Origin: a bacterium 1XD21-70
GTDB taxonomy: Bacteria; Bacillota; Clostridia; Lachnospirales; Lachnospiraceae
DNA: 64,000 nucleotides
Assembly: GCA_003669055.1 (NCBI GenBank)
Contig: RAYB01000016.1
Span: 1-64,000 of the forward strand
Direction of reading: 5' to 3'
A program made the position numbers and the translations under genes. The notes under the pieces were generated by a model. That model saw only the letters and a program-made list of their open reading frames with translations, did no database searches and was not told the origin of the DNA. This document shows, piece by piece, positions 18,957-58,137 of this stretch (positions are counted from its first letter, which is position 1; each line of letters starts with the position of its first letter).

Positions 18957-20735
18957 ATGCTTGATTTAATGGACATCAGTGATTTTATCCAGAAAATCGC
19001 CCAGGGAATTACGCTTGCCATCGGCATTGACACACAAGTGATCGATTTTAAGCTTCAGCGGGTGGCAGGCACCGTCTATAAACCGATACCCCAGAACGGC
19101 GGGGTGGTAAAACGGGTGATTGAAACAGGGGAATATGCAATCAGCACGGCAGTAGACCGGACAAGCCCGGCCTGCTTAAGCTGCAACCAGAGAAGCAACT
19201 GCAAAGAGATGGGGTATCTCCATTGCCCGATCGTTTATGGCAATATGGTTATCGGGGTTATGGGGCTGATCTGCTATGAGCCGGAGCATATAGAGAAGAT
19301 CAAGGATGAACGCCGCGGCCTGCTGAATTTTATCCAGAGCATGTGCGAACTGATCGGGCTGAAGCTGAAGGAGGAAGAAGTACGGAAAAAAGAACAGGAG
19401 ATCTACCGGAAGCTGGACAGCCAGAATCAGGTGCTCAACCAGGTGCTGGAACAGATTTCTGACGGGTACGTCCTTTTAGATGCCGATAACATTATCCGTA
19501 ATGTCAATAAAAAAGCGTTGAATATCTTTAAGACGGACAGCGGGGCTATTTTGGGGAAAAATATCCTGGAACTGATCCCGGATCCCATTTTCCACAAGAT
19601 GATCGAAACGGAAAGCGTAAATGTCTATGAAAAGATCAAGATCGGGGAGGAAAGTTACGGAGCTTTGTTTTACAAGGTGGCAGAACGCCGGGAAGATTTG
19701 GTAAAAATATTAAATTTTAAAACGATTATCAATATCGGGAGCCGTATTGCCGGGGAGGCTTTCCGGGAGAACCAGATTACCTTTGGCAATATCTTAGGCA
19801 GCAGCCCGAGGATGAGGCATTTGAAGGAAATTGCCCAGAAGGTGGCCAGGACGATGCCCAACATCCTGCTGACCGGGGAGACCGGCACGGGGAAGGAGAT
19901 GTTTGCCAGGGCAATACACAATGCCTCCGACCGCTGCGGAAACCCGTTTATCACGATTAACTGTGCGGCCATCCCCATGGAACTTCTGGAGTCGGAACTT
20001 TTCGGGTATGAGGAAGGGGCTTTCACGGGGGCAAAAAAGGGCGGGAAGATCGGGAAGTTTGAACTGGCGGATACGGGCACGATCTTTCTTGACGAAATCG
20101 GGGAGATGCCTTTCCATCTCCAGGCAAAGCTTCTGCGGGTACTGCAGGAACGCCGCCTGGAGCGGGTGGGCGGGAATAAGCAGATCCGCCTGAATATCCG
20201 CATTATCTCCGCCACCAACCGGGACTTAGAGAAGATGGTGGAGGAGGGGAAATTCCGGGAGGATTTATATTACAGGCTGAATATATTTGAGATCCATCTG
20301 CCGCCCCTGCGCGAGCGCCCGGAGGACATCCCGCTGCTGGTTCACTACTTTATAGAAAAGTACCGTTCCTTTTTTGAGGTGGATGTTTCGGGGATTGACC
20401 CGGAAGCGATGGAGCATTTGTGCCGTTACCAGTGGAAAGGCAATATACGGGAACTTGAGAATGTGGTGCAATACATGATCTCCATGAGTTCGGACAGCAT
20501 GTCGGGGATTATCGGCAAGGCGGCTTTGCCGGCGCAGGTCATGGAGGGCAAAAATCTCGACCCTGCCGGGAGGGAGGCGGAGGATATCCCGCTGGATTTT
20601 AAGGAGCGGGAGGCTCTCCAGATGAAAAAGCTGCTGGCGCAGTACGGCAATACCACGGAGGGCAAGCGGCAGGTTGCCCGGCAGATGGGGATCAGCTTAG
20701 CAACCTTGTACCGGCGCATAGGGAAAATGAAATAA
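18957..20735 (+). CDS. Sigma-54-dependent activator with N-terminal sensor and PAS domain
   Basis: An enhancer-binding protein of 592 aa. Residues 1-140 are a sensory region with a four-cysteine cluster (C73, C76, C82, C90; C-x2-C-x5-C-x7-C) that could bind metal or an iron-sulfur centre. Residues about 155-260 look like a PAS domain. The AAA+ domain has Walker A GETGTGKE (307-314), the sigma-54 contact loop GAFTGA (354-359) and FLDEIGEMP. The C-terminal helix-turn-helix is Fis-type (RQVARQMGISLATLYRRIGK). No receiver domain is present, so it should respond to a ligand or redox signal. A consensus sigma-54 promoter lies 109 bases downstream, making the following operon the likely target. Confidence 0.93.
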   Translation: MLDLMDISDFIQKIAQGITLAIGIDTQVIDFKLQRVAGTVYKPIPQNGGVVKRVIETGEYAISTAVDRTSPACLSCNQRSNCKEMGYLHCPIVYGNMVIGVMGLICYEPEHIEKIKDERRGLLNFIQSMCELIGLKLKEEEVRKKEQEIYRKLDSQNQVLNQVLEQISDGYVLLDADNIIRNVNKKALNIFKTDSGAILGKNILELIPDPIFHKMIETESVNVYEKIKIGEESYGALFYKVAERREDLVKILNFKTIINIGSRIAGEAFRENQITFGNILGSSPRMRHLKEIAQKVARTMPNILLTGETGTGKEMFARAIHNASDRCGNPFITINCAAIPMELLESELFGYEEGAFTGAKKGGKIGKFELADTGTIFLDEIGEMPFHLQAKLLRVLQERRLERVGGNKQIRLNIRIISATNRDLEKMVEEGKFREDLYYRLNIFEIHLPPLRERPEDIPLLVHYFIEKYRSFFEVDVSGIDPEAMEHLCRYQWKGNIRELENVVQYMISMSSDSMSGIIGKAALPAQVMEGKNLDPAGREAEDIPLDFKEREALQMKKLLAQYGNTTEGKRQVARQMGISLATLYRRIGKMK

Positions 20736-20775
20736 AAATTCGCATTATGAGAAAAATTATCATAATGCGAATTTT
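20735..20775 (+). promoter_or_regulatory. Perfect 16-base inverted repeat: candidate enhancer (UAS) and/or terminator
   Basis: AAAATTCGCATTATGA (20735-20750) and TCATAATGCGAATTTT (20760-20775) are exact inverted arms around 9 bases. The centre is about 115 bases upstream of the predicted sigma-54 transcription start, the normal place for an enhancer-binding site. The second arm runs into a T tract, so it might also terminate the activator transcript. Two AAATTGAGAAA direct repeats follow at 20784-20805. Confidence 0.7.
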
Positions 20776-20843
20776 TTTACGCCAAAATTGAGAAAAATTG
20801 AGAAACGGCCATGGAAAAACCGTGGAAAAGCGTAATGTTTTTT

Positions 20844-20859
20844 TGGCACGGAATTTGCT
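20844..20859 (+). promoter_or_regulatory. Sigma-54 (-24/-12) promoter of the dehydrogenase/ABC/DhaKL operon
   Basis: TGGCAC (20844-20849), five bases, then TTGCT (20855-20859). The GG and GC doublets are exactly 12 bases apart, matching the TGGCAC-N5-TTGCW consensus fully. The start is predicted near 20871, leaving a leader of about 98 bases. Confidence 0.92.
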
Positions 20860-20968
20860 CATTAATATAAATGAAAGCTGAAAGGCTGCAGGTATCCGTG
20901 CACCATTGCACTTTATCCGGACACGGAAAGAGGAGGCAGCGGTGTGCCAGAAAAACAGGAGGGACAGG

Positions 20969-21979
20969 ATGAAGACAAGGATTGTAGTGACAAGAGAGCC
21001 CAATGAGGTGGTTGTGGAGGAGCATGATTTAAGGCCGGGGGATAATGAGGTATTGGTAAAAACATATCTGGCCTCCATATGTGGGACAGATAAGAACTAT
21101 TCGGAAGGGAAAATGCCCCGGGAGGTACAGGTGGAGCGGGTGGACGGGAACAATGAAGCCCATCATGCGTACCCCCTGAAGATGGGGCATGAGGCAGCAG
21201 GTACCGTGGTGGAGGTCGGGAAAAATGTCACCGACTTCAAAGTGGGCGACAAGGTTATGTCCTTTGGATGGTACAACACCATGGCAGACTACTTTGTGGC
21301 CCCGGTGGTGCATAACGGCTACGGGGTGGTGAAGGTGCCTGAAGGGATGAGTATGGAAGCGGCGTCTTTAGGGGAACCTACTGCCTGTGCAATCTATGCC
21401 GGGATGCAGTCCGGCGTGGAACTCGGGGACGTGGTTGTTGTGGTAGGCGTAGGCTTTGCGGGGCAGGTCATTGCCCAGGTCGTGAAAAAAATGGGGGCGG
21501 CAAAGGTGATCTGCGTGGATGTGGTGGACGGCAAGCTGAACTTAGCCAGGAAAATGGGGGCGGATATCGTGCTCAACCCGAACCGCGACGATGTGGTAGC
21601 GAGGGTGCTGGAGGAGACGAACAACCAAGGGGCAGACGTCGTGATTGAGGTTGCCGGGAACGATACGGCGATCCAGCTGTGCAGCGATATCCTCAAGCAT
21701 GGCGGCATCATGGGGCTGTATAGCTGGGTGCTGGAACCGGCACAGCTTTATATCAACCGTTGGCATAATGACGGCTTTGATATCCGTACGCTGGCTTTGA
21801 TGCACCGTATCAAGATAGACCGCCCATGGTGGATTGAGAAGACCATGCAGAACGTGGCGAACGGGATGGTGCAGATTGACCCGCTGATTTCCCATGTGTT
21901 TGACTTGGCAGACGCGGCAAAGGCGTTTGATGTGGCCTGCAATGACCCGGATGCCTGCAAGGTAATGTTGAAACCGTGA
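20969..21979 (+). CDS. Zinc-type medium-chain dehydrogenase (sorbitol/threonine dehydrogenase-like)
   Basis: A 336-aa MDR-family dehydrogenase. Catalytic-zinc motifs are SICGTDKN (Cys, with the following Asp/Thr) and KMGHEAAGTV (His-Glu). GEPTACA supplies the later Glu. The NAD(P) fold has GVGFAGQV with an acidic residue at ICVDVVD, favouring NAD+. The four-cysteine structural zinc loop of classical alcohol dehydrogenases is not seen. Such enzymes oxidise secondary alcohols of polyols or amino alcohols. AGGAGG before the ATG at 20969 fixes the start; an upstream TTG frame lacks a ribosome site. As first gene of the operon, it probably converts the imported substrate to a ketone that DhaKL phosphorylates. 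Confidence 0.88.
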   Translation: MKTRIVVTREPNEVVVEEHDLRPGDNEVLVKTYLASICGTDKNYSEGKMPREVQVERVDGNNEAHHAYPLKMGHEAAGTVVEVGKNVTDFKVGDKVMSFGWYNTMADYFVAPVVHNGYGVVKVPEGMSMEAASLGEPTACAIYAGMQSGVELGDVVVVVGVGFAGQVIAQVVKKMGAAKVICVDVVDGKLNLARKMGADIVLNPNRDDVVARVLEETNNQGADVVIEVAGNDTAIQLCSDILKHGGIMGLYSWVLEPAQLYINRWHNDGFDIRTLALMHRIKIDRPWWIEKTMQNVANGMVQIDPLISHVFDLADAAKAFDVACNDPDACKVMLKP

Positions 21980-22009
21980 TAACAAAAGCAAAAGGAAGGA
22001 GATGCTAGG

Positions 22010-23278
22010 ATGAAAAAGCAAATGGCAATGATTTTATCGGCAGTTCTGGTGACAGGGATGGCAGGCGGCTGCTCCGGGAATAACACCCCGAATTCAGCAG
22101 CCGGGGGAGCAGCGTCTTCCCAGGCGCAGGAAACAGCCAAGGAGACAGCCAAAGAGGCAGACGGGGAGACGGCGGGCAGCGGCAGCTTTGACGGGACCGT
22201 CGTGCTTGGGGCAACGGCGCCCCTGACCGGCCCGAACCAGCTGACCGGGGAATATTACGTGAATGGCATGAAGCAGGCCGTGGATGAAATCAATGCGGCC
22301 GGAGGCATTTTGGGGAAGGAACTGGTGCTGGATGTCCAGGACGAGGGGACAGACCAGTCTATTGCCATCAATGCCACGATTAAACTGATTGAGAGCGGGG
22401 TACCGGCCATCATTGGTTCGTATTTTTCGACGAATTGCATGGCAGTCCTGCCGGAGATTGAAAAGAACAAGGTTCCTTATTTTGCCAATGGCTCTAACCC
22501 GGATATCTCCGCATCAAAGAACCCGTACGTATGGCAGATCCGGGTGACGGATGATTTTACCGGCCCGATCATGGCGGATGTGGCTTTAAATGAACTGAAC
22601 ATGAAGAACCCGGCAGTGCTTTATACAACGGCTTCTTCCACGACTATCCAGAAGGATAACTTTGTAAAGGCGATGGAGGAGCGGGGGAGCGTGATCCCGG
22701 ACAGCAATATTTACGGTGCGCCGGAAAACGAATCCAATTTCGGTTCCATCATAAACCAGATTTTGGGGAGCGATGTGGACGGCTTGGTGGTTATGGGCGT
22801 CAGCGAGGCCTGGGACGTGGCCTTGGCGCAGCAGCTCCAGTCCGCGGGCTGCGACATCCCCTTGATGGGCTCTTCCAGCTTTGCCAGCGCTCCCTTTATC
22901 GAGGTAGCCAAGGATGCGGCCAACGGTTGGTTTACGGTAGCAGACTGGTCGCCGAACATTCTGGGGCAGGATCTGGATGTGGCGGAACGTGCAGCGGAAT
23001 TTGAAACGAACTATGAGAACCTGTACGGCGCCAAAAGCGCAATGCAGTCGGCCTGGGGCTATGATTGTGTCTACCTGTTCAAGGAGGCCTGCGAGCGTGC
23101 AGGCACGACGGAGGACAGGGAGAAAATCAATGAGGCGATGAACGGCACGGATGTCCAGGGCGCGAACAATTATTATAAGATCTATGAGGACAGCTACCAT
23201 GTTATGTCCACTTATATTATGCTGTGCGAGACGACGGACGGGGAAGCTGTGCCGGTAAGGACAGTGAACTTCAGGTAA
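22010..23278 (+). CDS. LIV-type ABC transporter substrate-binding lipoprotein
   Basis: The signal peptide ends at a lipobox (GMAGGC, Cys near 22), followed by a Ser/Ala/Glu/Thr-rich linker. The rest is a Peripla_BP_6/LivJ-like binding protein: VVLGATAPLTGPNQLTGEYYVNGMKQAVDEINAAGGI is typical of the family. The family binds branched-chain amino acids, amides, urea and aromatic compounds. The operon context suggests a ligand that can be oxidised and phosphorylated, so the amino-acid label should not be assumed. AAGGAGATGC precedes the ATG. Confidence 0.9.
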   Translation: MKKQMAMILSAVLVTGMAGGCSGNNTPNSAAGGAASSQAQETAKETAKEADGETAGSGSFDGTVVLGATAPLTGPNQLTGEYYVNGMKQAVDEINAAGGILGKELVLDVQDEGTDQSIAINATIKLIESGVPAIIGSYFSTNCMAVLPEIEKNKVPYFANGSNPDISASKNPYVWQIRVTDDFTGPIMADVALNELNMKNPAVLYTTASSTTIQKDNFVKAMEERGSVIPDSNIYGAPENESNFGSIINQILGSDVDGLVVMGVSEAWDVALAQQLQSAGCDIPLMGSSSFASAPFIEVAKDAANGWFTVADWSPNILGQDLDVAERAAEFETNYENLYGAKSAMQSAWGYDCVYLFKEACERAGTTEDREKINEAMNGTDVQGANNYYKIYEDSYHVMSTYIMLCETTDGEAVPVRTVNFR

Positions 23279-23292
23279 CAGGCAGGTATTTT

Positions 23293-23319
23293 GGGGATGC
23301 TGCATGGGGCGGCATCCCC
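23293..23319 (+). promoter_or_regulatory. Intergenic hairpin between binding protein and permease
   Basis: GGGGATGC (23293-23300) pairs with GCATCCCC (23312-23319). No T tract follows, so it is more likely an mRNA stabiliser or processing site that favours the binding protein over the permeases. Confidence 0.55.
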
Positions 23320-23344
23320 GGATAACAAAAACGGAGGCATAAAA

Positions 23345-24238
23345 GTGAATTTTAGCATATTTTTTTCAATGCTGGTCAACGGGCTTTCCATGGGGATGAT
23401 TTATGCCATGATTGCCATGGGGCTTATCCTTTTGATCCGGGCAGTGGGAGTCCTTAATTTTGCCCAGGGGGATCTGCTGATGGTGGGGGCGTATATTGCG
23501 TGCGTACTGATTATGGACCTGAGCCTGCCATTTTATATAGCGGTGCCCTTGTCCCTGGTTCTTTACGCCTTATTAGGGCTGGTGTTCATGCTGGCCACAT
23601 ACTGGCCTTTGAGGAAGGCATCCTACCCGGTGGCGCCGATCATAGCTACCATGGGGGCGTCCCTTGTCCTGTCAGAGGGTACCATGATCCTGTTCGGCTC
23701 CTGGCCCAGGATCATTTCGCCTGTCTTAAAAAATGCGCAGGGGAAAGCATTGACCGTTAACCTTTTTGGGACAAGGCTGCAGGTGCAGTTTTTGCTGATT
23801 ATCGTAGTTGCCATAGTGGCCATGGCCTTGATTTACCTTTTGTTTGAGAAATCTTATATCGGCATTATGATGCAGGCGGCGGCGCAGGACAAGCCGACGG
23901 CAGAACTGATAGGGATCTCCACCTTGATGACGACGGCGGCCACCTACATGCTGGTGGTTGTTTTGGTCTCCATAGGGGGATATATGGTGGCTCCCGTGTA
24001 CACGGTTACCACATCATTGTCGTCTTTGAACCTGCGGGCGTTTGCGGGGACCGTGATCGGTGGGTTTGGGAGCATCAAGGGCGCGATTATCGGATGCCTC
24101 TTGGTTGGGGTGGTGGAGTCCTTTGCCACAATCCGGTTTTCTTCTTACAAGGATGCGATCGTCTTTTTGATATTGATTGTTTTTTTGATCTTCCGGCCGC
24201 AGGGATTGATCATTGACAAGGTCGCTGATAAAGCTTAA
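23345..24238 (+). CDS. LIV-type ABC transporter permease (LivH-like)
   Basis: An integral membrane protein with about eight helices, beginning VNGLSMGMIYAMIAMGLILL with VGVLNFAQGDLLMVGAYIA, the standard LivH signature. The start is the GTG at 23345, preceded by ACGGAGG; the frame upstream runs through the hairpin and has no better start. It pairs with the second permease 11 bases downstream. Protein length is 297 aa. Confidence 0.92.
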   Translation: MNFSIFFSMLVNGLSMGMIYAMIAMGLILLIRAVGVLNFAQGDLLMVGAYIACVLIMDLSLPFYIAVPLSLVLYALLGLVFMLATYWPLRKASYPVAPIIATMGASLVLSEGTMILFGSWPRIISPVLKNAQGKALTVNLFGTRLQVQFLLIIVVAIVAMALIYLLFEKSYIGIMMQAAAQDKPTAELIGISTLMTTAATYMLVVVLVSIGGYMVAPVYTVTTSLSSLNLRAFAGTVIGGFGSIKGAIIGCLLVGVVESFATIRFSSYKDAIVFLILIVFLIFRPQGLIIDKVADKA

Positions 24239-24249
24239 GGGGGGATGAC

Positions 24250-25227
24250 ATGGATATGCTGAAAAAAGCCCCGAAGGCAGGGGCTATCGTTGCTTTTTTG
24301 GTTTTGTTTTCTTTGGCCGTGACATGGAAAATGAATAACTATACGGTTCTTGTGGTGAATATGGCGCTGATCAACATGATTACGGCCTACGGGCTTTCCA
24401 TTATGCTGGGGATGTGCGGCCAGCTGGTTTTTTCGGGCGTGGCCTTTATGGGGATCGGTGCCTATATCACTGCCAACCTCTGTTCCGGGCGCTTAGGGTT
24501 TTTCCTTCCCGGGCATGCGGCGGTTGTAGCGGCAGTGGCATTGACTGCCCTCATTGCCTGGGCGGCAGGGATTTTGTTTTTAAGGCTGAAAAATTCGTTC
24601 TGTACCTTTGCGACGCTGGGGTTTGTCCAGGTGCTGTATGTGCTTTTCTTAAACTATGAACCGGCTTTCGGCGGGCCGAAGGGCATACCGGAGATCCGGA
24701 CGCTTTCCGTGGGCGGGTTTGTTTTTGACAGCTACAAGAAATGGTATTTTTTGCTCCTTGGGATCGTGCTTTTGATTGCCCTTATTGTGGAACGCATCCG
24801 CAGGACAAACCTCGGCAGGTCGCTGGCTTCCATCCGGGACAATGAAATCGCTGCCCAGAGCCTTGGGGTAAATATCTACCGCACGAGGGTGATCGCCTTT
24901 GTGATTGCCGGGGCTTTTGCCGGGCTTTCGGGCTCCCTCCTAGCCCAGCACAACCGTTTTATCTCCGGTGACCAGTTCAGCTTTGCCAAGAGCACCACCA
25001 TTGTCATCATGTCAATGCTAGGAGGGATCAACAGCACCCCGGGTATCTTTGTGGGCGCCTTGATCGTAACCTTTTTGCCGGAGGTTTTAAGGGGGCTTGA
25101 CAAATACCTGATGCTTATTTACGGCTTTGCGGTCATCATCATGATGATTTTTATGCCCATGGGAATCGGCGGTGCAGTCTCTGATTTTCTAAAGACCATG
25201 AGAAGGAAGCACAAAGTAAAATCATAA
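24250..25227 (+). CDS. LIV-type ABC transporter permease (LivM-like)
   Basis: A 325-aa membrane protein with the LivM signature: SIMLGMCGQLVFSGVAFMGIGAYITA, then the later IRDNEIAAQSLGVNIYRTRVIAFVI and MLGGINSTPGIFVGALIVTFLPE. Some ten hydrophobic segments are visible. GGGGGG precedes the ATG at 24250; a second ATG six bases on is also possible. It forms the heterodimeric channel with the LivH-like partner. Confidence 0.92.
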   Translation: MDMLKKAPKAGAIVAFLVLFSLAVTWKMNNYTVLVVNMALINMITAYGLSIMLGMCGQLVFSGVAFMGIGAYITANLCSGRLGFFLPGHAAVVAAVALTALIAWAAGILFLRLKNSFCTFATLGFVQVLYVLFLNYEPAFGGPKGIPEIRTLSVGGFVFDSYKKWYFLLLGIVLLIALIVERIRRTNLGRSLASIRDNEIAAQSLGVNIYRTRVIAFVIAGAFAGLSGSLLAQHNRFISGDQFSFAKSTTIVIMSMLGGINSTPGIFVGALIVTFLPEVLRGLDKYLMLIYGFAVIIMMIFMPMGIGGAVSDFLKTMRRKHKVKS

Positions 25228-25246
25228 CAAATCATTGGAGGATAGT

Positions 25247-26008
25247 ATGGGCGAGGCAATATTAAAGCTGGAAGGGGTATGCAAAAGCTTTGGGGGCGTT
25301 GTGACGGCGAAAAACGTGGACCTAAAGGTCATGCCTGGTGAGATCCATGGGCTGATCGGGCCAAATGGAGCCGGGAAGAGCACCATGATGAACCTGATCA
25401 GCGGCATTTATGAGGTCGATGAGGGAAAGATTTATTTTCAGGGGGAAGATATTACGGGAACCCCTTCCCATATGCGGGCGAGGAAGGGGATTGGAAGGAC
25501 GTTCCAGACACCGCGCTTTTTGTACCGTTCCAATATCCGGGATAATTTGATGCTGGGGGTAGATTTGCAGGACCAGCTGGGGTATTTCAAAAGCTTTATC
25601 GGGAAAAAGGGCAGTGATTTTTTGAAGGAACTGGATGAACTGATGGAACTGGCAGGCTTTGCGATTGACTGGGATGAGGACATCACGGCCATTCCTTTCG
25701 GACAGAGGAAAATCCTCGAGATTGTCCGGTCGATGCTGGGGCATCCGAAGGTGATGCTTGTGGACGAACCAGCCGCAGGGCTGACCACGCAGGAGATCGG
25801 GCAGGCAAGGGATCTTTTGATGTTTGCAGCCAAGAAAAGGAATATCGGAATCCTGCTGATCGAGCATCAGATGGACCTTGTGATGAGCACTTGTGAAAAT
25901 ATTGACGTTCTTGTGTTCGGCGAAATCCTCGCAAGGGGGCTGCCGCAGGAGATTGCGGCAAACCCGATTGTTTTGGAGGCGTATCTGGGGAGGGACTTTG
26001 ATGATTAA
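25247..26008 (+). CDS. LIV-type ABC transporter ATPase (LivG-like)
   Basis: ATP-binding subunit with Walker A GPNGAGKST, the LivG-type insertion after GRTFQTPRFLY, signature region IPFGQRKILEIVRS (degenerate LSGGQ, as in many LivG proteins) and Walker B VMLVDEPAAGL. GGAGG precedes the ATG at 25247; an upstream TTG in frame is less likely. The last eight bases overlap the next ATPase gene. The protein is 253 aa. Confidence 0.93.
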   Translation: MGEAILKLEGVCKSFGGVVTAKNVDLKVMPGEIHGLIGPNGAGKSTMMNLISGIYEVDEGKIYFQGEDITGTPSHMRARKGIGRTFQTPRFLYRSNIRDNLMLGVDLQDQLGYFKSFIGKKGSDFLKELDELMELAGFAIDWDEDITAIPFGQRKILEIVRSMLGHPKVMLVDEPAAGLTTQEIGQARDLLMFAAKKRNIGILLIEHQMDLVMSTCENIDVLVFGEILARGLPQEIAANPIVLEAYLGRDFDD

Positions 26009-26732
26009 AATTAAGGAGCTGCACGCATATTATGATCTGATCGAGGCTCTCAAGGGGATTGACATGGTGGTTGAGAAAGGGAAGATCACCTGCCTGATCG
26101 GCAGCAACGGGGCGGGGAAAAGCACATTGATGAACTCCATATCCGGCGTAATTGCCCACAAGGGATCCATCATGGTGGACGGACAGACCGAAATAGCCAA
26201 AAAAAACAGCCGCCAGATTGCCCGCATGGGGATTATCCAGGTTCCGGAAGGGCGCCATGTGTTTCCCGGGCTTTCCGTGGAAGAAAACCTCCAGACCGGG
26301 ACGATTGTGTGGCATGGGTATTTTGGCAGGAAATCTTATGAGGCAGAACTGGAAATGGTATATGAACTTTTTCCAAGGCTGAAGGAACGGCGGCGGCAGC
26401 TGGCATGGAGCATGAGCGGCGGGGAGCAGCAGATGCTGGCAATCGGGAGGGCGCTGATGGCCAGGCCGAAGGTGCTTCTCTTGGACGAGCCGTCCATGGG
26501 GCTGTCCCCTCTGCTGGTTGGAGAAATGTTTGAAAAGATCGTGGAGATCAATAAAAGCGGGATGACAATCCTTTTGAACGAGCAGAATGCAAGGCTTGCG
26601 ATGAAGATTTCGGATTTTACTTATGTGATCGAGCAGGGGCGGATCAAGATGAGCGGCATTTCAGCTCAAATGCAAAATAACCCCCAGATTGCAGAGGCGT
26701 ACCTGGGAAAACAGGCAGCGGCACAGGCGTGA
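26001..26732 (+). CDS. LIV-type ABC transporter ATPase (LivF-like)
   Basis: Second ATP-binding subunit, 243 aa: Walker A GSNGAGKST, VPEGRHVFPGLSVEENL (typical of LivF), signature MSGGEQQMLAIGRALM and Walker B VLLLDEPSMGLSPLL. The ATG at 26001 overlaps the LivG-like gene and is preceded by GGGAGG, showing translational coupling. With the two permeases and the binding protein it makes a complete importer. Confidence 0.94.
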   Translation: MIKIKELHAYYDLIEALKGIDMVVEKGKITCLIGSNGAGKSTLMNSISGVIAHKGSIMVDGQTEIAKKNSRQIARMGIIQVPEGRHVFPGLSVEENLQTGTIVWHGYFGRKSYEAELEMVYELFPRLKERRRQLAWSMSGGEQQMLAIGRALMARPKVLLLDEPSMGLSPLLVGEMFEKIVEINKSGMTILLNEQNARLAMKISDFTYVIEQGRIKMSGISAQMQNNPQIAEAYLGKQAAAQA

Positions 26733-26761
26733 GGAAACCAGCGGGAAGGAGACAGCAAACA

Positions 26762-27772
26762 ATGAAAAAACTGATTAACAAACCAGAAGATTTTGTACGG
26801 GAGACCATGGAGGGGATCATTGCCGCTTATGGGGATAAGGTAAAGCTGCTTGACGGTGATTACCGTATCCTGTTAAGCAACTATGGTGCCAGGGACGGGA
26901 AGGTAGGGATTGTCACGGCAGGCGGCTCCGGGCACCTGCCGGTGTTCCTGGGCTATGTGGGCCAGGGGCTTTTGGACGGGTGCACGGTCGGGAATGTATT
27001 TGCCTCCCCGGCAGCATCGAAAATGGCGGATATGATCCGTGCCTGTGACAGGGGAAGCGGGGTCTTGGTGCTGTTTGGGAATTACGGCGGGGATAAGATG
27101 AATTTTGAACTTGCTTGTGAGACAGTGGATATGGAGGACGACATCAAGACGAAAATGGTATTGGTAAAGGACGATGTCGCCAGCGCCCCGAAGGAGGAAG
27201 CCCAGAGGCGCAGGGGCGTGGCAGGGATGGTCTATGCCTTTAAAGTGGCAGGGGCAAAGGCAGAAAACGGCGGGAGTTTAGAGGAGGTGGCAGCAGCGGC
27301 GCAGCATGCCCTGGATAACATCCGGACGATGGGGGTGGCATTGTCCTCGTGCATTGTTCCCCAGGTAGGGGAGCCGACATTTTCCATTGCCGAAGACGAG
27401 ATTGAGATCGGGATGGGGATCCACGGGGAACCCGGGCTGGAGGTGAAAAAAATGATGGCAGCCGATGAGGTTGCAGAGACCCTCCTGGGGAAAATCATGG
27501 AAGACATGCCCCTTCATGCAGGGGACGAGGTGTCGGTGATGGTCAACGGCCTGGGGGCAACCCCGCTGGAGGAGCAGCTGATACTTTACCGCCGGGTGCA
27601 CCAGATGCTGGCAGGCCTGGGGGTCAGCATCTATATGCCCCATATCGGGGAGTATGCCACATCCATGGAGATGGCCGGGGTTTCGCTCACGGTCATGAAG
27701 CTTGACGGGGAATTAAAAGGGCTGCTGGGGCAGGTTGCCAAATCCCCGTTCTATACCAATTATAATAAATGA
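26762..27772 (+). CDS. dhaK: Dihydroxyacetone-kinase-like subunit DhaK (possibly another ketose kinase)
   Basis: DhaK holds the keto substrate as a covalent hemiaminal on a histidine, here H221 in GMGIHGEPG. The conserved glycine-rich site reads AGGSGHLP (H58), where E. coli DhaK has GGGSGHEP; the Glu to Leu change is a departure from the dihydroxyacetone kinase. GHLP-type DhaK relatives include, as I recall, kinases for four-carbon ketoses such as erythrulose, so the true substrate may differ. AGGAGA precedes the ATG at 26762; a longer frame to 26729 overlaps the LivF-like gene and lacks a ribosome site. The protein is 336 aa. Confidence 0.88.
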   Translation: MKKLINKPEDFVRETMEGIIAAYGDKVKLLDGDYRILLSNYGARDGKVGIVTAGGSGHLPVFLGYVGQGLLDGCTVGNVFASPAASKMADMIRACDRGSGVLVLFGNYGGDKMNFELACETVDMEDDIKTKMVLVKDDVASAPKEEAQRRRGVAGMVYAFKVAGAKAENGGSLEEVAAAAQHALDNIRTMGVALSSCIVPQVGEPTFSIAEDEIEIGMGIHGEPGLEVKKMMAADEVAETLLGKIMEDMPLHAGDEVSVMVNGLGATPLEEQLILYRRVHQMLAGLGVSIYMPHIGEYATSMEMAGVSLTVMKLDGELKGLLGQVAKSPFYTNYNK

Positions 27773-27784
27773 GGTGAATACAGG

Positions 27785-28399
27785 ATGAACGTAAAGGATT
27801 TGGCAGAAGCCGTCAAGAGGATCAGCAGAAAGATCGAGGAAAATAAAGATTACCTGGTGAAACTGGACCAGCAGAACGGGGACGGGGATCTGGGGATCTC
27901 CATGGACGAGGGGTTCAAGGCAGTTGAAATGCTTTTGGAATTGACAGAGGAGCAGGATCTGGGGAAGGTTCTCATGAAAGCGGGGAATGCCTTCAACGAG
28001 GCGGCGCCTTCCAGCCTGGGGACGATCCTGTCCTTTGGCTTTATGGGGATGGCAAGGAACTTAAAGGGCGTGACGGATGCGGACCAGCTGCAGGTGGTGG
28101 CTGCTTTTAAGGCAGGGGTAGAGAAAATCATGGAAAAGGCCGGGTCAAAGCCCGGTGAGAGGACGGTTCTGGACTCCTTGTGCCCGGCAGCCGAGGCTTG
28201 GGAGAAGAGCGCCCGGGAAGGGGCCGGCTGGGGGGAGGCATTGGGATGTGCGGCCAAGGCTGCGGCTTGGGGAGCAGAGGCGACGAAGCAGATGCTGCCG
28301 GTTCATGGCAGGGCTGCCTACTATGGGGAGAAAAGCCTGGGGCATCCGGACGGCGGGGCGGTTGTCGGAAAGCTGGTATTTGAGGCATTGGGGCGGTAG
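27785..28399 (+). CDS. dhaL: Dihydroxyacetone-kinase-like subunit DhaL (nucleotide-binding)
   Basis: DhaL binds the nucleotide (ADP/ATP) with two magnesium ions and transfers phosphate to the DhaK-bound substrate. The magnesium-binding aspartates appear in QQNGDGDLGISM (near residue 35). TERTVLDSLCPA-like (GERTVLDSLCPAAEAW) and GHPDGGAVVG segments are also family features. In PTS-type systems DhaM rephosphorylates DhaL. No DhaM lies in this operon or window, so DhaL either exchanges free ATP or uses a distant DhaM. GAGGTG before the ATG is the ribosome site. Protein length 204 aa, last gene of the operon. Confidence 0.9.
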   Translation: MNVKDLAEAVKRISRKIEENKDYLVKLDQQNGDGDLGISMDEGFKAVEMLLELTEEQDLGKVLMKAGNAFNEAAPSSLGTILSFGFMGMARNLKGVTDADQLQVVAAFKAGVEKIMEKAGSKPGERTVLDSLCPAAEAWEKSAREGAGWGEALGCAAKAAAWGAEATKQMLPVHGRAAYYGEKSLGHPDGGAVVGKLVFEALGR

Positions 28400-28410
28400 G
28401 TACGCCATGG

Positions 28411-28464
28411 AAAAAGGGAGGGCAGAAGGCACCTTGGCAGGGGCCTTCTGCCCTCCCTTTTTCT
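28411..28464 (+). terminator. Very strong terminator of the sigma-54 operon
   Basis: A perfect 20-base stem: AAAAAGGGAGGGCAG with the following AAGGC (28411-28430), pairing with 28443-28462, loop of 12 bases, then T-rich sequence. It closes the dehydrogenase/ABC/DhaKL operon. Confidence 0.93.
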
Positions 28465-28579
28465 ATAGCCGGCTATTGGGGGCGGCTGGGATGGCTGGAA
28501 AGAGGCGAACCGGGCATTGGCTTTGGGGGTGGGTAAGGGGGGAGGATATTATGGAAGACGGGGAAATTTAGGTATTGGC

Positions 28580-56587: not shown

Positions 56588-57664
56588 ATGGCAGGGTCAA
56601 CTTTGGGAACCGTATTTCGGATCATGACATGGGGGGAGTCCCACGGAAAAGGCGTCGGTGTGACGATCGATGGCTGCCCGGCGGGGCTTTCTTTGCATGA
56701 GGAGGATATCCAGCAGTATTTAAACCGGAGAAAACCGGGGCAGAGCAGCTTGACCACCGCACGGCAGGAGGGGGATCAGGTCGAGATCCTGTCAGGGGTT
56801 TTTGAGGGGAAGACGACAGGGACGCCGATTGCGCTGATAGTAAAAAACCTTGACCAGCGGTCGAGGGATTACCGGGCAATTATGGACATATACCGGCCAG
56901 GGCATGCAGACTATTGTTTTGATGCCAAATATGGATTCCGGGATTACCGGGGCGGCGGCCGTTCCTCGGGCAGGGAGACAACCGGCAGAGTGGCAGCAGG
57001 CGCAGTGGCATGCCGTTTGCTGGCGCATTACGGGATCCGTGTGGATGCCTATACCAAGAGCATCGGGGACATCGAGATCGACCCTGTGCGCTTTGACCTG
57101 GCGGAACGGGAGAAAAACAGGCTCTATATGCCGGATGCAGCGGCAGCGGCGGCGGCAGAAGCATATGTGGAGGAACTGATCCGGGAACAGGATTCCTGCG
57201 GGGGCATCGTGGAATGCAGGATTAAGGGGCTTCCAGCCGGCGTGGGGGAACCTGTTTTTGATAAGCTGGATGCCTGCCTGGCAAAGGCGGTCATGTCCAT
57301 CGGGGCGGTGAAAGGGATTGAGATCGGGGATGGGTTTGCTGCCGCCAGGAGCCGGGGCTCTGAAAATAATGACGCATTTTATAAAGGGGCAGACGGTGCG
57401 GTCTGCAAGAAGACCAACCATTCGGGAGGGATTCTGGGCGGCATCAGCGACGGGGATGACATCATCCTGCGGGCGGCATTTAAGCCTACTCCGTCGATCG
57501 CACAGCATCAGCAGACGGTGAACCGTGCAGGGGAGGATGTGGAGATCGAGGTTAAGGGGCGCCATGACCCGGTTGTAGTGCCGCGGGCGGTAGTAGTGGT
57601 GGAAGCGATGGCCGCGCTTACCGTGGCGGATCTTTTGCTGACGGGGCGTTGTGCCAAACGATAG
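56588..57664 (+). CDS. aroC: Chorismate synthase
   Basis: Uses reduced FMN to make chorismate, the precursor of aromatic amino acids. The start STLGTVFRIMTWGESHGKGVGVTIDGCPAG, RPGHADYCFDAKYGFRDYRGGGRSSGRETTGRVAAGA and the final GRHDPVVVPRAVVVVEAM are all signatures. Length 358 aa. AGGAGGG before the ATG is the ribosome site. pheA, which uses its product, lies about 21 kb away. The stop overlaps a frame upstream of the RpiB-family gene. Confidence 0.96.
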   Translation: MAGSTLGTVFRIMTWGESHGKGVGVTIDGCPAGLSLHEEDIQQYLNRRKPGQSSLTTARQEGDQVEILSGVFEGKTTGTPIALIVKNLDQRSRDYRAIMDIYRPGHADYCFDAKYGFRDYRGGGRSSGRETTGRVAAGAVACRLLAHYGIRVDAYTKSIGDIEIDPVRFDLAEREKNRLYMPDAAAAAAAEAYVEELIREQDSCGGIVECRIKGLPAGVGEPVFDKLDACLAKAVMSIGAVKGIEIGDGFAAARSRGSENNDAFYKGADGAVCKKTNHSGGILGGISDGDDIILRAAFKPTPSIAQHQQTVNRAGEDVEIEVKGRHDPVVVPRAVVVVEAMAALTVADLLLTGRCAKR

Positions 57665-57696
57665 GAATTTCGGGTTTATTGGGAAAGGAGGCTATT

Positions 57697-58137
57697 TTGA
57701 AAATAGGGTTAGGAAATGACCATTCGGCAGTGGAGATGAAGAGGGTGATCCTGGAACATTTGGAGTCGAAAGGATATGAGGTCGTGGATTTTGGGACGAA
57801 TTCCAATGAAAGCTGCGACTATCCGCTGTATGGGGAGAAGGTGGGGCGTGCCGTGGTGTCCGGCGAGACGGATTATGGCATTGCCATCTGCGGCACGGGC
57901 ATCGGCATTGGCATCGCGGCCGGGAAGGTGAAAGGGATCCGGGTCTGTACGTGCAGCGAGCCCTACAGTGCCCGGCTGTCACGGATGCACAATAATACAA
58001 ATGTCCTGACGTTCGGCGCCCGGGTGGTTGGCACGGAGATGGCGAAAATGATAGTGGACGAATGGCTGGAGAATGCCTATGAGGGCGGCCGCCATGAACG
58101 GCGGGTAACACAGCTGATGGAGATAGAAAAGCGGTAG
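57697..58137 (+). CDS. rpiB: RpiB/LacAB-family sugar-phosphate isomerase
   Basis: Interconverts ribose-5-P and ribulose-5-P, or a related aldose/ketose pair. GNDHSAVEMKRVILEHLESKGYEVVDFG, the active-site Cys region ICGTGIGIGIAAGKVKGIR and NNTNVLTFGARVVG are family blocks. The start is a TTG at 57697 preceded by AAAGGAGG; the upstream frame overlaps aroC. Length is 146 aa. Some RpiB homologues act on allose- or erythrulose-phosphate, so a link to the DhaKL operon is possible but unproven. Confidence 0.88.
   Translation: MKIGLGNDHSAVEMKRVILEHLESKGYEVVDFGTNSNESCDYPLYGEKVGRAVVSGETDYGIAICGTGIGIGIAAGKVKGIRVCTCSEPYSARLSRMHNNTNVLTFGARVVGTEMAKMIVDEWLENAYEGGRHERRVTQLMEIEKR

Follow-up and report, generated by a model that had tools for sequence, protein, structure and literature searches.

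In the gut-type Lachnospiraceae bacterium 1XD21-70, a stretch of 64,000 nucleotides (contig RAYB01000016.1 of GenBank assembly GCA_003669055.1, positions 1 to 64,000; hereafter, the window) carries an operon in which a zinc-type medium-chain dehydrogenase/reductase (MDR) is encoded together with a leucine/isoleucine/valine (LIV)-type ATP-binding cassette (ABC) importer and the kinase subunits DhaK and DhaL (DhaKL). We propose, and give the proposal about an even chance, that this is a catabolic operon, controlled by sigma-54 and its own activator, whose products import a small C3-C4 polyol, oxidize it and phosphorylate it. The LIV-fold binding protein and the ABC importer would take up a neutral C3-C4 polyol, our first guess being a tetritol (erythritol or threitol) and our second a glycerol-like triol. 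The zinc MDR dehydrogenase would then oxidize a secondary alcohol to give a ketose, which DhaK and DhaL would phosphorylate with ATP, and the phosphorylated product would enter central metabolism via enzymes encoded elsewhere. We infer the polyol substrate, the direction of the dehydrogenase reaction, the ATP donor and the size of the ketose. The parts are of known kinds, and the unusual element is the LIV-type importer, which is uncommon for polyol uptake.

The sequence-only reading of this DNA described eight consecutive genes of named families, a consensus -24/-12 promoter behind its own activator and a strong terminator at the operon's end, and all three descriptions held (Table 1). Pfam assigned all nine proteins, including the activator, to families (Sigma54_activat, ADH_N/ADH_zinc_N, Peripla_BP_6, two BPD_transp_2, two ABC_tran, Dak1 and Dak2), while every NCBIfam match shown for them falls below the curated cut-offs. 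The genes from dehydrogenase to DhaL lie on the same strand and, with the starts chosen, are never more than 66 bases apart, one pair overlapping by 8 bases, and from this spacing we infer a single transcript; the starts of permease 1 (GTG 23345), ATPase 1 (ATG 25247) and ATPase 2 (ATG 26001) are our own reading. The -24/-12 element has the correct spacing and precedes the first gene, 109 bases from the dehydrogenase start, and the genome has an RpoN match. Exact matches to TGGCAY-N5-TTGCT number three in the window against 0.09 expected, and since two of the three are intragenic (26876, antisense in dhaK, and 57006), the case for the promoter is carried by its position and conservation. A related pattern allowing up to two mismatches is at chance level (28 found, 38.5 expected). 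The second sigma-54-like site (57006-57021, plus strand), within the reading frame 56588-57664, is probably there by chance. The newly noticed hairpin directly after the activator gene suggests that this gene is probably a transcription unit of its own, and its palindrome may hold an activator half-site as well. Thus, judged from its sequence, this is a well-delimited sigma-54 operon made of known parts.

Table 1. Features of the operon and its control region (window coordinates).
Feature	Position	Strand	Evidence
Sigma-54 enhancer-binding activator, PAS + AAA	18957..20735	+	Sigma54_activat 9.9e-74; GAFTGA present
Hairpin 3' of activator gene, probable terminator	20734..20776	+	-19.6 kcal/mol, z -6.8
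Putative activator-binding half-site ATGAGAAAAAT	20747..20757	+	1 mismatch to TTGAGAAAAAT; near-identical stretch aligned in L002
Putative activator-binding half-site TTGAGAAAAAT	20788..20798	+	exact match; identical in L002
Sigma-54 -24/-12 promoter TGGCACGGAATTTGCT	20844..20859	+	0 mismatches; kept in L002
Zinc-type MDR dehydrogenase	20969..21979	+	ADH_zinc_N 6.9e-22 (Pfam)
LIV-type substrate-binding lipoprotein	22010..23278	+	Peripla_BP_6 1.3e-46
Permease 1, LivH-like	23345..24238	+	BPD_transp_2 4.7e-28; GTG start after GGAGGC
Permease 2, LivM-like	24250..25227	+	BPD_transp_2 5.2e-34
ATPase 1, LivG-like	25247..26008	+	ABC_tran 1.2e-27; LIV-specific tail BCA_ABC_TP_C 7e-9
ATPase 2, LivF-like	26001..26732	+	ABC_tran 3.5e-28; 8-base overlap with ATPase 1
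DhaK, SGHLP/GNY group	26762..27772	+	Dak1 2.6e-113; alignments, motifs, tree group
DhaL	27785..28399	+	Dak2 2.5e-41; motif DQQNGDGD intact
Intrinsic terminator hairpin	28407..28466	+	-49.6 kcal/mol, z -7.5, 0/200 shuffles as good

A locus of [Clostridium] asparagiforme (L002) corresponds in order to the window operon in its activator (79% identity), promoter, dehydrogenase (84%), DhaK (86%) and DhaL (70%). Its promoter TGGCATGGATTTTGCT (L002:3271-3286) is likewise located between the activator and dehydrogenase genes, at a distance of 58 bases from the start of the latter, and the upstream palindrome and the TTGAGAAAAAT repeat, which may be the activator site, are also present. However, L002 has a ribose-type importer (Peripla_BP_4 protein, Pfam) where the window has a LIV importer, and an additional Amidohydro_2 gene (Pfam), the product of which matches in the PDB only pyrone-dicarboxylate hydrolases, weakly (E 1.4e-4 and 5.9e-4). 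The neighbourhood search suggested in the sequence-only reading thus recovered the frame of activator, dehydrogenase and DhaKL in the same order, though around an importer of another type. Since the importer is exchanged while the enzymes are unchanged, both importers arguably carry a similar sugar-like compound. Ribose-type importers usually carry neutral sugars. The exchange favours a polyol- or sugar-like substrate. The retention of this frame is one reason for preferring the polyol proposal, and it agrees, together with the other DhaKL loci that combine a ribose-type importer with a short-chain dehydrogenase/reductase (SDR) gene, with the order of import, oxidation and phosphorylation proposed from the sequence alone.

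The importer shares with the LIV/HAAT class (LivKHMGF, UrtABCDE) its composition of a Peripla_BP_6 protein, two BPD_transp_2 permeases and two ABC_tran ATPases (Pfam), but its five proteins fall well short of the cut-offs that NCBIfam sets for Liv and Urt proteins. The structural model of the binding protein (mean pLDDT 82, residues 1-54 low) has the general LIV-BP fold, with 3td9 as best match (TM by target 0.91) and matches whose titles name mixed ligands (leucine, urea, aromatic acids). As LIV-fold proteins also bind aromatic acids and urea, the importer type alone is no pointer to amino acids. In LIV-binding proteins, an acidic residue and a Tyr pair hold the amino group of amino acids. 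An alignment of 19 rows, in which the window protein appears two times and two solved chains are represented in part, places Ser in the window protein at the Asp of 3td9 and 4gnr, and the Tyr-Tyr motif is missing (VSEA versus YYPE/YYNE). Loss of the residues that hold the amino group makes ordinary amino acids unlikely as the ligand, and this too is a reason for proposing a polyol. The Asp is kept in one LIV paralogue of the same genome (C74).

The dehydrogenase retains Cys38, His74, Glu75 and Glu136, which we take to be the catalytic zinc ligands, and the four-Cys lobe of the structural zinc is not seen at the motif positions. Relatives at E 1e-60 were found in two of 390 other genomes, in addition to one paralogue in the own genome; after L002 the nearest are 62% (at a contig end), 47% (G217) and 45% (own genome) identical. 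The own paralogue belongs to a gene cluster (G000:C22, L106:2712-10958) that comprises a sigma-54-type activator, GntP, the paralogue itself, a class II aldolase and a divergent DUF1537-type kinase with a DRL-type oxidoreductase, and which is probably a C4 sugar-acid cluster.

The DhaK of the window, the only DhaK match in its genome, is of a distinct group. When aligned with the solved DhaK of E. coli and Lactococcus, its His58, Asp111 and His221 correspond to E. coli His56, Asp109 and His218, with Gly106 in place of Lys104 and Leu in place of the Glu after His56. The superfamily residues are thus kept (two His and one Asp of DhaK, and DxxxGDGD of DhaL); we take them to be the covalent-site His, the catalytic His and Asp, and the metal-binding motif of DhaL. 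Instead of SGHEP and KNYxGD, which we ourselves derived as canonical from the E. coli and Lactococcus proteins and from 81 rows, the protein has SGHLP and GNYGGD, and it scores 353 against TIGR02363, the cut-off being 406. In a FastTree tree of 166 rows the motif types form three groups, with no more changes (2) than the minimum: a branch with 99% local support sets off the Lys group, another with 98% sets off the window's group (mostly SGHLP with a few GHIP variants), and the third group needs two changes. Neighbours were counted around 165 DhaK rows (81 Lys-type, 44 of the window's group, 33 of the third and 7 with other motifs) as lower bounds, flank lengths being different. DhaM lies near 47 of the 81 Lys-type rows, 6 of the 33 and none of the 44, and GlpF near 13 of the 81 and none in the other two groups; an HPr-sized gene of L007, in the DhaM BLAST cluster, is without match in this count. 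The TIGR02364 profile, which matched controls in three genomes, found no DhaM in the own genome (96.7% complete). The lack of a DhaM match in the genome and beside the 44 rows supports the polyol proposal and makes ATP the likely phosphoryl donor.

The third group shares the Lys104-to-Gly exchange and has RpiB near 10 and TIM-like isomerases near 8 of its 33 rows, with neither near any of the 81 Lys-type rows; on L054, Pfam confirms RpiB (PF02502) and TIM-type (PF00121) partners. DerI and LerI are presumably enzymes of these RpiB- and TIM-like types, and by this analogy the third group resembles the tetrulose kinases that act in tetritol routes. Its company is a further reason to suspect a polyol in the window. 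The window DhaK is, on motif and tree evidence, not a canonical dihydroxyacetone kinase subunit: its group stands apart from the DhaM-linked dihydroxyacetone kinases, so that an ordinary DhaKL would be the wrong starting assumption. The company of the window's group is mixed, including PTS (phosphotransferase system) with class II aldolase, ribose-type importers, and LIV with ATC hydrolase. The combination of a PTS (galactitol-like by eye), class II aldolase and SGHLP-type DhaKL recurs in L007, L013, L014, L015, L016, L018, L021, L032, L058 and L154. Both DhaK types are adjacent in L003:1961-11645, where a Lys-type DhaKL and a second, SGHLP-type one accompany a TRAP-type importer, two ATC_hydrolase-like genes, an SDH_alpha gene and a GntR-like gene (by eye). 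In L024:3091-12841, an SGHLP-type DhaKL lies amid ribose-type importer, GPI, OMPdecase/HUMPS, SIS, ROK and Fe-ADH genes, of which HUMPS and SIS resemble the formaldehyde-fixing HPS/PHI and would fit a conversion of erythrulose 1-phosphate to dihydroxyacetone phosphate (DHAP) and formaldehyde. Pelagibacteraceae SGHLP-type DhaK (L017, L020, L023, L025, L029) have no recognized catabolic gene linked.

The pairing of a LIV importer with DhaKL, for which the sequence-only reading knew no parallel, recurs across Clostridia, and its being unique to the window is rejected. Among the best 80 of 274 loci from a scan of named genomes, in which genes were called by script and neighbours clustered, a LIV importer lies beside DhaK in 14 (L004, L005, L006, L044, L052, L056, L059, L063, L065, L067, L068, L070, L077, L081), and the 17 matches from a set of 10 relatives include one, L086, with the two LIV ATPases. 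Sampled evenly and with the own genome included, Clostridia have Dak1 in 61 of 391 genomes (81 matches, one being the window's); 72 of the other 80 matches were examined and 8 low-scoring ones left out. The 30 best-scoring, viewed with flanks of ~1.5 kb, have no LIV genes within these flanks (L131 ends in an ABC ATPase fragment), and the next 42, in 40 regions, gave six regions with LIV genes (L145, L153, L155, L157, L159, L166), i.e. 6 of 72. A stricter automatic count of LIV permeases, which misses L006 and L153 as their permeases are below its cut, found them with 12 of the 81 Lys-type rows, with 6 of the 44 in the window's group and with none of the 33 in the third.

Importer, dehydrogenase and DhaKL also recur together, as LIV with SDR in L005, as ribose-type importer with SDR in L182, and as the latter pair with RpiB in L162, L168, L171, L173 and L175, a recurrence that also led us to the polyol proposal. 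Near LIV-DhaKL, the 165-row count has an SDR gene only in L005 and L067. In 13 loci the partner of LIV and DhaKL is an ATC_hydrolase-like (PF14196) gene (L004, L005, L006, L059, L063, L067, L068, L070, L077, L155, L157, L159, L166), joined in L004, L063, L067 and L068 by an SDH_alpha gene, presumably of the cysteine desulfidase fold; in L003, a TRAP-type binding protein takes the place of LIV. Pfam underlies PF14196 on L004 and L006 and PF03313 on L003 and L004, the other labels coming from BLAST clusters or tblastn. ATC_hydrolase had no match in the own genome, nor in the control genomes, so that its absence remains unshown. As regards control, GAFTGA is absent from all eight activator-like proteins beside other LIV-DhaKL operons (L004, L052, L059, L063, L065, L067, L068, L077), and a search of 21 loci for sigma-54-like sites with at most one mismatch gave exact matches outside L002 only at L005:12708, inside a later gene, and L166:9682, on the opposite strand, neither placed as a promoter. 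Sigma-54 control of LIV-DhaKL may therefore be special to the window; L002 has the control but no LIV genes.

Adducts formed by cysteine and a small carbonyl would account for every part of the operons that combine LIV, ATC_hydrolase-like, SDH_alpha and DhaKL genes. A broader and rather doubtful idea is that LIV importers and DhaKL constitute an undescribed family of uptake-and-phosphorylation modules in Clostridia, the commoner form of which imports adducts of cysteine with small ketones or aldehydes, the window being a polyol variant. In the commoner form, a thiazoline-hydrolase-like protein would split the adduct, the cysteine would pass to a desulfidase-like lyase and the triose would be phosphorylated; in the window, the hydrolase would have been exchanged for the dehydrogenase and the substrate would now be a polyol.

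Several observations weigh against the polyol proposal. The acidic residue is absent also from an own paralogue (C39) and from 12 of the 13 binding proteins aligned from other LIV-DhaKL loci (only L056 retains Asp), so that its loss does not single out polyols, and kin of the window protein were not found at E 1e-45 in 390 other genomes, so the ligand class cannot be read from relatives. The neighbours of the MDR relatives hint at sugar acids: the own 45% paralogue adjoins a GntP permease (Pfam) and a class II aldolase, with the activator and DUF1537-type kinase nearby, and the 47% relative in G217 adjoins a permease judged GntP-like by eye, with an activator next. The operon has no isomerase or aldolase, and the linked RpiB-/TIM-type isomerases that mark tetrulose kinases (LerK/DerK type) are thus missing from it. 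RpiB lies near only 1 of the 44, so that the window's group does not necessarily consist of tetrulose kinases; class II aldolase lies near 12 of the 44 (3 of 33 and 0 of 81 in the others) and ATC-hydrolase-like genes near 8 of the 44. The DhaK tree was built with the motif columns left in, has some long branches flagged and leaves 7 rows outside the groups. A LacAB_rpiB gene (57667-58137) follows the frame 56588-57664 far from the operon; it could act as an unlinked isomerase, yet it looks like a housekeeping rpiB.

The lack of an isomerase or aldolase among the nine proteins would suit a plain glycerol/dihydroxyacetone entry, in which the dehydrogenase converts glycerol to dihydroxyacetone and DhaKL forms DHAP with no further enzymes needed, and the residues aligned with catalytic His56, Asp109 and His218 are indeed kept. 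However, DhaM and GlpF accompany part of the Lys104-type rows and none of the window's group, and glycerol uptake requires no ABC importer; we regard this entry as unlikely. A little less probable is a C4 sugar acid or lactone that the dehydrogenase would turn into a 3-keto acid, with CO2 loss yielding dihydroxyacetone or a tetrulose for DhaKL. The GntP, aldolase and DUF1537-type neighbours of the own MDR paralogue speak for it, as do the weak hydrolase matches of the L002 Amidohydro_2 protein and L011, which combines a DUF1537-like kinase, class II aldolase and DhaKL of the window's group (labels by BLAST cluster), but the paralogue is only 45% identical, the window operon has no decarboxylase and the L002 importer is of a type that usually carries neutral sugars. 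The 13 loci with an ATC-hydrolase-like gene, four of them with SDH_alpha, could also mean that the window belongs to a wider LIV-DhaKL system importing an amino-acid conjugate of a small ketone, the dehydrogenase here replacing the ring-opening hydrolase. This we hold to be more improbable again, as L002 has a sugar importer, the window binding protein is only 18-26% identical to 13 binding proteins of such operons, and ATC_hydrolase is unmatched in the genome, with the limit on that search given above. Leucine-type binding proteins head the fold matches, as expected if an ordinary branched-chain amino acid importer were co-transcribed by chance with sugar genes; given the Ser at the amino-group-holding position, the missing Tyr-Tyr motif, the importer genes placed between dehydrogenase and kinase, and two more strong Peripla_BP_6 proteins elsewhere in the genome, this has very little probability.

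To look for a genomic island at the trxA-topB junction, topB was viewed in the regions of seven relatives, several of which end at contig ends; a further window neighbour of topB, the sortase gene, was seen in L185 only.

Among the closest known systems, LerK is presumably a DhaK-type protein. The tetritol route EltD-LerK-LerI-DerI has a dehydrogenase that makes a tetrulose which a kinase then phosphorylates, as proposed for the window, whereas its isomerases are part of the route and absent from the window operon, and its transporter and sigma-54 control are not as in the window (PMC10733421; PMC12780249). A study that reconstructed the sigma-54 regulons of 57 Clostridiales species and reports 39 activator groups lists in its Table 1 a DhaQ regulon of dhaKLM and ptsI and names no operon of LIV with DhaKL (PMC6615313). 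In the DhaQ case, as in the window, clostridial dhaK and dhaL are under sigma-54 control, but it has dhaM, ptsI and another activator, while the window DhaK is of another group in a genome without DhaM match (PMC6615313). The LIV-DhaKL operons of other Clostridia (for example L063, L067 and L155) likewise have the LIV importer directly before dhaK and dhaL, and differ in that many have an ATC_hydrolase-like gene, and the eight nearby activator-like proteins lack GAFTGA. No title or abstract describes a LIV-DhaKL operon in the literature covered, which leaves out most subscription journals; the pairing thus appears recurrent yet undescribed in the literature searched. Should the binding protein take a polyol, polyols would join amino acids, amides, urea and aromatic acids as ligands of LIV-type importers, and the SGHLP branch of DhaK, whose members are currently named dihydroxyacetone kinases, could be assigned a function. 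The recurrent LIV-DhaKL operons offer a testable way into the nutrient use of gut-type Clostridia.

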